NCBI RefSeq assembly: GCF_018448495.1
Contig: NZ_CP049902.1
Span: 2,046,001 to 2,110,000 of the forward strand
Source: Psychrobacter sp. WY6
GTDB taxonomy: Bacteria; Pseudomonadota; Gammaproteobacteria; Pseudomonadales; Moraxellaceae
Direction of reading: 5' to 3'
Length of the DNA: 64,000 nt
Positions 59,258 through 62,568 of the stretch are shown one piece after another. Under the pieces are notes generated by a model that was not told the DNA's origin, ran no database searches, and saw nothing but the letters and a program-made list of their open reading frames with translations. Positions within the stretch are counted from its first letter, which is position 1. Each line of letters starts with the position of its first letter. The position numbers were made by a program, and so were the translations under genes.

Positions 59258-59373
59258 GGTGTTTCCTATCGATGGCATGTATAAAAAAGCGATGGCAAGG
59301 GTATCAATCAGCGTATACTCAAATCATCGCGACCTATGATATCAGTAGTTACCAATATGGCAATAATAAGATG

Positions 59374-59437
59374 ATACTTAAATACTTAAATACTTAAATA
59401 CTTAAATACTTAAATACTTAAATACTTAAATACTTGA
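59374..59437. repeat. octanucleotide tandem repeat (ATACTTAA)8
   Basis: Seven perfect copies of ATACTTAA and an eighth with one change (ATACTTGA) run head to tail over 64 bases. It lies between the bestrophin gene start and the map stop, outside coding sequence. Copy number is likely to vary between strains. Confidence 0.95.
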
Positions 59438-59482
59438 ATCACTCTTGTATTACGCAGCAGCAAGGAAAACTGTAAGCACGCT

Positions 59483-60256
59483 CTAACGGGTCTCTTCTTC
59501 ACGCAGCGTCAGCACTTCATAACCATCGGCAGTCACCGCGATGGTATGCTCCCATTGGGCAGAAAGCTTTTTGTCTGCAGTCACCACCGTCCAGCCGTCT
59601 TTTTTCATTTTTACTTTGGCTTTGCCTTGATTAATCATTGGCTCAATAGTAAAGGTCATACCTTGTTTTAGAACCAAGCCTGCACCTGCGCGACCATAAT
59701 GTAAAACTTCAGGCTGTTCGTGCATTTCGCGACCGATACCATGCCCGCAGTATTCTCTAACGACAGAGTAACCGTGCTGTTCGGCATGGCTTTGAATGGC
59801 ATGCCCAACATCACCGAGCGTTGCACCCGGTTTGACAACACGGATACCTGCCCACATGGCCTCATAAGTGTTATCGACGAGGCATTTTGTTAAGGGCATC
59901 ACATCGCCAATCATATACATTTTGCTAGAGTCGGCAATAAAACCGCCTTTTTCTAAAGTAATGTCCACATTGATGATATCGCCTGATTTTAGGACTTGGT
60001 TGCTTGAGGGTACACCATGACAAACTACTTGATTGACAGAAGTATTGAGCACGTATTGGTAGCCGTATTGACCTTTGCTGGCAGGTCGTGATTGTAAAAC
60101 ATCCACAATATAGCGCTCAGCCAAATCATTGACAGTCATTGTGGAGATGCCAGCGACCATGTGCGTATCTAAGTAAGCAAAAACCGATGCCAATAAGCGT
60201 CCAGACTCACGCATGATGGCCAACTCTTCAGTAGTTTTTAGCGCGATTTTAGCCAT
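59483..60256 (-). CDS. map: type I methionine aminopeptidase
   Basis: Map removes the N-terminal methionine from new proteins. The 257-residue protein has the pita-bread fold with metal ligands in INVDITLEKGGFIADSS (Asp and Asp), the histidine in CGHGIGREMHEQPEV, the glutamate in TFTIEPMINQGK, and the last in SAQWEHTIAVT. The frame is intact. The ATG overlaps the stop of a ParD-like gene by eight bases (ATGGCTAA), so the two are translationally coupled. It is not next to rpsB, the classical map neighbour, so it may be a second copy. Confidence 0.93.
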   Translation of the reverse strand: MAKIALKTTEELAIMRESGRLLASVFAYLDTHMVAGISTMTVNDLAERYIVDVLQSRPASKGQYGYQYVLNTSVNQVVCHGVPSSNQVLKSGDIINVDITLEKGGFIADSSKMYMIGDVMPLTKCLVDNTYEAMWAGIRVVKPGATLGDVGHAIQSHAEQHGYSVVREYCGHGIGREMHEQPEVLHYGRAGAGLVLKQGMTFTIEPMINQGKAKVKMKKDGWTVVTADKKLSAQWEHTIAVTADGYEVLTLREEETR

Positions 60257-60455
60257 CGATAAGATTTCCTATATTAACATCTGCTCGTTTTAACTGCTCG
60301 CTGATGATATCGGTATAAGATGCGTGAGGATTGGCCTCGGCCAACATACCTATCTTTATCCAATACTCTGCCTGCGCGTTAATCGAACGTACCATTACCG
60401 CACTGGCTTTACGAAGCTCTTCGTGTAGCGCATCATCAATTTTAACAATACCCAT
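60249..60455 (-). CDS. ParD-like family protein
   Basis: This 68-residue protein resembles the ParD-like ribbon-helix-helix family: MGIVKIDDALHEELRKASAV, MVRSINAQAEYWIKIGMLAE, NPHASYTDIISEQLKRADVN. Such proteins look like antitoxins of type II systems but here the partner encoded downstream is Map, not a ParE toxin. The start at ATG 60455 is chosen because the helix pattern starts there; an in-frame ATG at 60509 exists. The stop overlaps the map start. The family is known mainly from this association, so it may regulate map expression or Map itself. Confidence 0.82.
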   Translation of the reverse strand: MGIVKIDDALHEELRKASAVMVRSINAQAEYWIKIGMLAEANPHASYTDIISEQLKRADVNIGNLIDG

Positions 60456-60580
60456 TGTTTTACCTAGTATATGAAATGTATACGAATCATACATATTGTA
60501 TAGTTCCATTGCAAGCTCGTTCTTGTATTCCTCGATGAAGACATGTAGTTATAGCATTCGAGCCATCAAATCGATGACCC

Positions 60581-60633: not shown

Positions 60634-62541
60634 TTAATCATTCTCTAAGAAAGAACGCAGATGCTCAGAGCGTGACGGATGACGCAATTTACGCAGTGCT
60701 TTTGCCTCAATCTGACGAATACGCTCACGTGTTACATCAAACTGCTTACCCACTTCTTCCAAGGTATGGTCGGTTGGCATGTCGATACCAAAGCGCATTT
60801 TTAGTACGCGTGCTTCACGCTCAGTCAGATTGCCCAATACATCACGAGTCGCTTCACGCAGACCAGCTGCGGTCGCATCATCAACAGGGCTTGAGATCGT
60901 ACCATCTTCGATGAAATCACCTAGATGCGAGTCTTCATCATCACCGATGGGTGTCTCCATAGAGATAGGCTCTTTGGCGATTTTCAGTACTTTACGGACT
61001 TTAACTTCGTCCATCTCTAAGCGTTCACCTAACTCCTCAGGCGTTGGCTCGCGTCCCATTTCTTGTAGCAACTGAGAAACACGATTTATTTTGTTAATGG
61101 TCTCGATCATGTGTACAGGAATACGGATGGTACGCGCTTGGTCAGCGATAGAGCGGGTAATTGCCTGACGAATCCACCATGTCGCATAGGTCGAGAACTT
61201 ATAACCACGGCGATATTCAAATTTATCGACTGCTTTCATTAGACCGATGTTACCTTCTTGGATTAGATCTAAGAACTGTAGACCACGGTTGGTATATTTC
61301 TTCGCGATAGAAATAACCAAACGCAGGTTAGCTTCGACCATTTCTTTTTTGGCGCGGCGAGCTTTTGCTTCACCGACTGCCATACGGCGCGCCACGTCTT
61401 TCATGTCGTGGATTTTCATGTCGAGCTGTTGCTCGTAGTCACGAATGCGACGTTGCAATAAAATAACATCATCAGTGACTTTTCTAGCGTACCAGCAAAT
61501 GCAGGCTTACCTTTGATGCGCTCAATCAGCCAATCAACGTTGGTTTCGTTGCTAGGGAAAGTCTTACGGAACTCTTCACGTGGCATACGACCACGGCGAA
61601 TGACCAAACGCATAATCTGACGCTCTTGCTTACGTACATCATCATAGACATCATGCATGATGGCCATGACTTGGTCTGACAAGCGATTGTTTAGCTTAAG
61701 CATCATAAAGCGTTCGGCAAGTAGGGCATAAGCAGTATCTGCTTCTGTGCTACCACGGCCATAATCTAGCAAGGCTTGCTTGGCTTTAATAAATAAGTGT
61801 TCGATTTCTTCTAGACGCAGACGTACTTCTTCAGGATCGATACCGCTGGTTTCTTCTTCAGCTTCCTCTTCAACGTCGTCTTCATCCTCGTCCTCATCAT
61901 CAAGCGCCGCTGCTTTGGCTTTTGCTTTGATCACAGGTGGATTTTTTTTCTTCTTTTATGCGTTCACGTTCTTCTTTTGCTGCCTCTTTCGCTTCTTGGG
62001 CAGCGATTTTGTCTGCTTCGGTCTCAGGATCTAAAAAGCCAGTAATGACGTCAGAAAGCTTTTTTCGCCATCTTGTACTTTTTGATACTCATCAAGGACG
62101 AACTGTACGGTGCCCGGCCAGTAAGACATCGCATGCTGTACGTCACGAATGCCTTCTTCGATACGCTTGGCAATAGCAATCTCACCTTCACGGGTTAATA
62201 GATCAACCGTACCCATTTCACGCATACATACGTACAGGGTCAGTGGTGCGACCCGGCTCAGTCTCAACAGAGGCCAATACCGCCGCTGCCTCATCCGCTG
62301 CCATGTCATCATCGCTTGAATCGTCGTTCATCAAGATGTCATCGGCATCAGGCGCAGATTCAAAGATTTTGATACCAACGTCGGTCAGCATTTGCACAAT
62401 ATCTTCGATCTGATCGCTTTCGGTAATAGAGTCGGGCAGTTGGTCATTCACCTCAGCATAGGTGAGATAGCCTTGCTCTTTACCCATTTGGATTAAGGTG
62501 GCCAGTTGAGATGTGGACTTAGAAACTGACTTATCGTTCAT
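60634..62541 (-). CDS. rpoD: RNA polymerase sigma factor RpoD (four frameshifts)
   Basis: RpoD is the housekeeping sigma-70. From N to C: region 1.1 ([20 protein letters not shown]), region 1.2 with PVRMY followed by [20 protein letters not shown], the non-conserved domain with a strongly acidic run ([17 protein letters not shown]), region 2 ([40 protein letters not shown]), region 3, and region 4 ([40 protein letters not shown]). The gene is broken by a two-base loss near 62226 (PVRMYMREM), and by A-run losses near 62062, 61945 and 61481. About 635 residues when mended. Start at ATG 62541 ([11 protein letters not shown]) is preferred to 62568. Sigma-70 is essential, so the breaks are errors. 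dnaG lies upstream. Confidence 0.93.
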
Positions 62542-62568
62542 AAATACTCGCTTACTTGCATCGGACAT

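Follow-up and report, generated by a model that had tools for sequence, protein, structure and literature searches.

In ParDE and other type II toxin-antitoxin (TA) systems, with ribbon-helix-helix (RHH) or PF11903 antitoxins, a small antitoxin-family gene usually comes first and its partner overlaps or abuts it. CopG and omega are small RHH autorepressors of plasmids. Among type I methionine aminopeptidases (MetAP, Map), the E. coli enzyme (TIGR00500, PDB 2MAT) is the natural reference, and B. subtilis (MapB/YflG) and M. tuberculosis (MapB) possess second MetAPs, which to our knowledge are not paired with a ParD-like gene. In this study, we compare with these systems a ParD-like gene that overlaps a gene for a type I MetAP (map2) in a 64,000-nt stretch of contig NZ_CP049902.1 of Psychrobacter sp. 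WY6 (the window, to which coordinates refer unless another locus is named). Like TA operons, the pair has a small antitoxin-family gene in front and a candidate operator over its promoter, and it is carried by plasmids and mobile cassettes, but its second gene encodes a complete methionine aminopeptidase instead of ParE, RelE, or zeta, and the PF11903 protein begins with MG[IVL]-. Like CopG and omega, the ParD-like protein would keep dosage constant via repeated half-sites with helical spacing, although its target would be the gene of a protein-processing enzyme and not a replication or segregation gene. Map2 shares with E. coli Map the metal ligands, the catalytic histidines, and the P1' residues C78, M206, and Q233, which are identical in the two, but its clade (1a) has a changed pocket (C/P59 to S, Y62 to Q, C70 to N, and F177 to M), and it is a second copy that is partnered, apparently regulated, and mobile. 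Unlike the second MetAPs of B. subtilis and M. tuberculosis, Map2 moves with its ParD-like gene as a unit. In a literature search outside bioRxiv and subscription texts, we found no description of this pair; in the accessible part of PMC3948609 the Map and RHH terms concern unrelated genes, and a marine survey table in the accessible part of PMC12654330 contains 6 hypothetical/ParD-like pairs.

The ParD-like gene (60249..60455, minus strand) encodes a 68-aa protein, putatively the repressor of the operon, which starts with MGIV- and matches the PF11903 ParD_like profile with 81.2 bits (cut-off 23) over residues 1-57 against profile positions 1-57 of 73; in a profile search it is the sole PF11903 match in the whole assembly. 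Its ORF, opened by the ATG at 60455, is nested in a longer one, and an alternative in-frame start at 60509 would give 86 aa, in which case coding would cover the promoter and operator described below. Homologues align starting at Met1-Gly2. Among 39 diverse homologues, M1, G2, H11, R15, R23, S24, N26, Q28, A29, W32, G36, and P43 are invariant and the helical core is strongly conserved, whereas the C-terminal part differs in length and sequence; the closest relatives are from Psychrobacter. The map2 gene (59483..60256, minus strand) encodes 257 aa with a TIGR00500 score of 289.8 bits (cut-off 171.35). A sequence-only reading of this DNA had pointed to an eight-base overlap of the two genes and to a TA-like layout, and both are borne out: the ParD-like stop and the Map2 start share 8 nt, ATGGCTAA (60249..60256, minus strand), and a small antitoxin-family gene comes first. 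The last base of an AGGA stretch lies 10 nt ahead of the map2 start. Just 3' of map2, at 59374-59439, there is a tandem array of 8.2 copies of the 8-bp unit ATACTTAA with 98% matches.

The same reading had asked whether this Map is a second copy, and it is: another type I Map gene of the assembly lies at C1:1352922-1353657, upstream of a glnD-like gene (recognised by eye), which is the gene order of E. coli. The map2 ORF is unbroken. The glnD-side map is split by a frameshift and the glnD-like gene is split too. The window's rpoD (60634-62568) is broken up into some four ORFs that overlap and differ in frame, of which the first alone was checked with Pfam, and its open frame of 290 aa compares with ~630-690 aa in relatives. 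Since rpoD is broken here and occupies one frame in relatives, assembly indels best explain the split map and glnD-like genes, and all three breaks are probably indels of this assembly, which is 85.6% complete, and not gene losses.

Map2 is probably a working enzyme, as its catalytic residues are complete. The metal ligands D97, D108, H171, E204, and E235 and the catalytic residues H79 and H178 are invariant in 135/135 distinct Map2 sequences (the set left after removal of duplicates and of 6/159 Map loci that have no usable full-length sequence) and in 67 distinct other Maps. Map2 is under purifying selection; dN (0.01-0.20) is far below dS (0.2 to saturation) in both genes of the pair. Where it departs from the housekeeping enzymes is the P1 pocket, which consists of S60, Q63, Y66, N71, M178, and W222 in Map2 compared with C59, Y62, Y65, C70, F177, and W221 in E. 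coli Map, the P1 residues given in Table 2 of PMC10724148. In clade 1a, which comprises 116 sequences including that of the window, S59, Q62, and N70 occur in 116/116 and M177 in 115/116, whereas Y62, C70, and F177 occur in 66/66 housekeeping-type Maps, with L254 set aside; a second clade, 1b (18 sequences), has N59, Y62, C/L70, and Y177. Four of the ten group-specific columns are among the six P1 residues (hypergeometric p=1.8e-5, post hoc).

However, the pocket is not confined to the pair. The same or similar pockets without an adjacent type-1 PF11903 gene (type 1 being the group of the window's ParD-like protein) were found in L254, which lies beside a glnD-like gene, and in L318 and L321; the pocket is therefore characteristic of a Map lineage rather than of the module alone. 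A FastTree phylogeny supports the split between Map2 and other Maps with 0.946, L254 being misplaced, and clade 1a with 0.999; with L318 and L321 included, the values are 0.744 for 1a alone, 0.993 for 1a plus both, 0.988 for 1b, and 1.0 for the divergent pair L206 and L311. The type-1 gene is thus linked to three Map lineages, namely 1a, 1b, and a divergent type with a TYYCFW pocket, which indicates either repeated recruitment or an old association with losses. As a separate observation, the Map adjoining a glnD-like gene in L308 (G156) clusters with the 1b lineage and has the pocket NYYCYW, and this grouping suggests that accessory and housekeeping Maps may have swapped roles. We also considered the pocket as a sign of a new substrate specificity, for example for oxidised N-terminal methionine; this idea is weakened by genome G160, whose only first-look Map has the pocket SQYNMW and which has no PF11903 match.

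The ParD-like/Map pairing, which the sequence-only reading described as conserved in related bacteria, is indeed conserved, and it is not due to chance. In the nearest loci of named genomes, which are the best 80 of 321 relatives and therefore biased toward close ones, a Map sequence follows the ParD-like gene in 80/80, the Map N-terminus is intact in 79/80 (L077 retains a C-terminal piece only), and the two genes share exactly 8 nt in 76/80. A pooled set of 182 PF11903 loci was then formed from the close relatives, the order, class, and phylum surveys, and plasmids, with none dropped and some species present twice, and each locus was assigned to type 1 or type 2 by its best-matching query. 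Type 1 begins with MG[IVL]- and has Gly2 in 161/161 loci, whereas residue 2 of the type-2 proteins, whose start codons are extrapolated, is A, S, or G. Map is present at 159/161 type-1 loci (128 distinct ParD-like proteins), the exceptions being L148 and Aureimonas L207, and at 0/21 type-2 loci, the survey loci being taken from the best-scoring matches and the many lower-scoring ones left out being mostly type-2-like; the two types share no partners among the loci seen. The type-2 locus L218, the sole one whose partner was looked up, adjoins a ParE toxin gene. Where both genes of the type-1 pair are on the same strand, 109/158 overlap by exactly 8 nt and 156/158 lie within -20 to +25 nt of each other, and for the type-1 loci fetched in the class and phylum surveys Map is present at 34/35.

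Within the genus Psychrobacter (87 genomes), all 23 type-1 carriers have an adjacent second Map, and 0/63 non-carriers have a further Map that scores above the curated cut-off, the extra matches present in 11 of them having been checked; a few of these 63 genomes are just 83-86% complete, and in one (G076) the single Map is in two pieces. Counted apart from these, G060 has an intact Map2, a ParD-like gene reduced to its C-terminal part, and no operator. Of 369 gammaproteobacterial genomes, 9, our own included, have a Map with 60% or more identity to Map2 (E<=1e-80), and in 8 of these the type-1 gene is adjacent; the exception is G160, whose Map, again the only first-look candidate in the genome, has the SQYNMW pocket in the absence of PF11903, and in G309 of the same family the pocket recurs at 58% identity while the sole PF11903 match is on a different contig. 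The stronger proposition that a second Map always implies a ParD-like gene is false. A second Map over the cut-off is found in 7/60 Pseudomonadota genomes besides our own, and the type-1 gene adjoins it in 4 of the 7 (G507, G528, G550, and G557). The genomes G516 (L309), G531, and G544 have a second type I Map and no PF11903 match.

The earlier suggestion that the ParD-like protein might bind upstream of 60455 can be followed to a conserved candidate site. The upstream regions share a near-perfect palindrome with the consensus TATATGATTCGTATACGTTTCATATA, which contains three boxes at 10-bp spacing and is represented in the window by TGTATGATTCGTATACATTTCATATA (60468..60493, minus strand), three palindromic boxes ~10 bp apart, identified by consensus match and position frequencies. 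The consensus was made by eye after most loci had been seen and is AT-rich, and against shuffles that preserved base composition only, a score of at least 17 of 26 was reached at 151/161 type-1 loci, 1/21 type-2 loci, and 0.9% of the shuffles. Ten of the 161 type-1 loci score below 17. The same score was reached in 131/141 distinct type-1 upstream regions and in 23/26 phylum-survey loci that were unseen when the consensus was written. With up to 3 mismatches, the pattern has one site in the whole assembly, that at 60468-60493 with 2 mismatches, whereas a backward-read control gave 0; a single genomic site fits an autorepressor of one operon. A consensus scan also placed a sigma-70-like promoter at 60486..60514 (minus strand), with TTGCAA at 60514-60509, a 17-nt spacer, and TATGAT at 60491-60486, and this -10 sits inside the candidate operator. 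Such consensus sites are not significant alone (5 in the stretch vs 3.5 expected), but a -35 match of at least 4 of 6 to TTGACA at 16-18 nt occurs in 63/126 relatives vs 14.6 expected from shuffles, and a TTGC motif forms the -35-like element in the relatives' upstream regions. In the divergent copies L206 (Sulfitobacter plasmid) and L311 (viral contig), operator-like boxes can be seen by eye between both genes. Taken from these sequence patterns, the ParD-like protein probably represses the promoter of its own operon.

Its assignment to the RHH class, which we take from the Pfam description and from general knowledge of such repressors, is less visible in the predicted structure. The AlphaFold monomer has helices at 8-41, 47-57, and 62-67 and no strand, so that the RHH fold is not clear, Foldseek returned no similar structure for this model at E<=0.001, and a profile-based comparison of the protein with PDB sequences likewise gave nothing. 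We infer from its family that the ParD-like protein is a repressor of the RHH type.

The pair is mobile, as judged from its presence on plasmids, its variable presence in chromosomes, and its integron-cassette-like copies. In the window, homology with G037 (L294/L310) and G018 (L295) ends at the rpoD end or terminator and restarts at a bestrophin gene, and the segment between these breaks (59275..60577), which contains the pair, is missing from both; there, 425 bp and 262 bp of other sequence, respectively, lie between the rpoD end and the bestrophin gene, with no pair. The segment was either gained here or lost in G037 and G018. In G039, no pair was found within 1.5 kb after rpoD. A ParD-like match is present in 169 of 72,556 plasmid records, and 16 of the 17 records inspected are type 1, with Map adjacent in 15 of these (by annotation, or by tblastn where unannotated; H33 was found using the pair as query) and the Aureimonas plasmid without Map. 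Copies with at least 99% identity are present on eleven plasmids of Klebsiella and Salmonella. A megablast search with the pair of the Klebsiella plasmids found no close copy in 20,395 E. coli records. A phage collection gave no match, and one viral contig (L311) has the two genes. On the A. baumannii plasmid pAb825_36 (L211), a diverged copy of the pair has blaOXA-58 and an ISAba825 element in its vicinity. A map gene on Acinetobacter blaOXA-58 plasmids is named as pathogenicity-associated in PMC6796979, whose accessible text makes no mention of a partner.

A small number of marine Gammaproteobacteria have the pair in a form that resembles an integron cassette equipped with a promoter of its own. 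A gapped search of 157 loci found attC-like hairpins 3' of map in two, L088 and L105, with a score of 10.5 vs a maximum of 10.0 in 3,140 shuffles, and L097 and L106 resemble them by eye but have attC scores of just 2.5 and 3.0. When strict ends were applied, attC sites on both sides were found in 0/80 loci (one upstream only, one downstream only), and an ungapped search gave 0/157 loci. Group II intron matches lie directly upstream of the pair at L111:4377-4759. By name, many carriers are marine genera. Among 101 neighbouring proteins from 26 loci (141 neighbour ORFs of 36 loci were listed, and 37 from plasmid loci and 3 beside L074, L104, and L112 were left out), no Pfam family is seen more than 3 times at E<=1e-5, and a larger conserved operon was rejected on this ground. 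We likewise rejected methionine-sulfoxide repair as a general link; in Pantoea At-9b msrA is immediately 3' of map, but tblastn with that MsrA gave 0 matches at the other 160 type-1 loci (E<=1e-5).

Considering these features, we favour the reading, with a probability of about two in three, that the pair is a compact, horizontally mobile, autorepressed operon with an accessory Map, which is built like a TA system but probably is not one. In this operon the ParD-like repressor would bind the three-box operator over its own -10 and shut the operon, and the overlapping stop and start would couple translation, so that both proteins are kept in proportion. Map2 would be an active second methionine aminopeptidase with a different methionine pocket. 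Autorepression would hold it at a low level that is independent of dosage in any host or plasmid, and titration, degradation, or inactivation of the repressor would release Map2. The output would be additional or alternative N-terminal methionine excision and not poisoning.

What the accessory Map is for could be answered in several ways. It is possible, if doubtful, that Map2 serves as an inhibitor-insensitive spare, which would carry out excision when bengamide-like MetAP inhibitors block the housekeeping enzyme, the repressor then switching Map2 on. The concentration of group-specific columns in the P1 pocket, with P1' residues unchanged, would suit this role, as would the mobile copies in many marine carrier genera, and MetAP inhibitors made in nature by self-resistant producers are described in PMC6022970. 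However, the same pocket occurs in G160, whose Map looks like the sole one, so the pocket may reflect lineage history, and the neighbours of the pair have no common gene family. A different proposal, and a rather unlikely one in our estimate, is that the ParD-like protein acts chiefly on the Map2 protein, which it would bind, inhibit, or stabilise and which would in turn serve as corepressor. RelE is such a corepressor for RelB, and antitoxins usually contact toxins through their C-terminal part. Joining of the type-1 gene to several Map lineages (1a, 1b, and TYYCFW) is in keeping with this proposal, as are the stoichiometry that translational coupling would fix and the strongly conserved helical core. 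The C-terminus of the ParD-like protein is variable, however, and in L206 and L311, where the divergent genes are not translated together, operator-like boxes are still present; both points speak against the proposal.

Less likely again is a homeostat, in which removal of Met1 from the repressor would alter its DNA affinity, so that the operon would sense total Map capacity and make Map2 when this is short, for example when the housekeeping Map is inhibited or metal-starved. The basis for this idea is the Met-Gly N-terminus of the ParD-like protein, with its Gly2 in all type-1 loci. A Met-Gly N-terminus is an ideal Map substrate, and by comparison with CopG, the N-terminus would presumably belong to the strand with which an RHH dimer reads DNA. 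Of the roles considered, insensitivity to inhibitors and feedback on excision capacity lend themselves best to testing.

A true type II TA system, in which Map2 would be a poison neutralised by binding of the ParD-like protein and addiction would maintain the pair, seems highly improbable despite the resemblance in layout. The small upstream antitoxin-family gene, the overlap, the operator of autoregulatory type, and the plasmid and cassette carriage would all be expected of such a system, and relatives in PF11903 do adjoin toxins, namely ParE in the type-2 locus L218 and a zeta toxin in a case described in PMC6504116. However, purifying selection on Map2, a complete enzyme, is strong, and as a TIGR00500 MetAP it stands outside the known toxin families; a PADLOC search gave no match for the ParD-like protein or Map2 at E<=1. 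E. coli tolerates extra Map. Furthermore, the loss of the ParD-like gene next to an intact Map2 in G060 argues against strong toxicity of Map2, and Maps with the same pocket exist without an adjacent type-1 gene. Finally, that the two genes are chance neighbours, or hitch-hikers in a larger conserved operon, can practically be dismissed, as the pair is kept at 159/161 loci and no neighbour family is seen more than 3 times among the proteins from 26 loci.

Methionine excision is commonly regarded as a constitutive housekeeping process. A widespread mobile unit that combines an apparent switch with a Map of different pocket would mean that excision capacity is itself selected for and regulated. 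The near-identical copies on conjugative-typed Klebsiella and Salmonella plasmids bear on MetAP as an antibacterial target. And, a family of antitoxin type apparently has, in its type-1 members, a protein-maturation enzyme as its partner.
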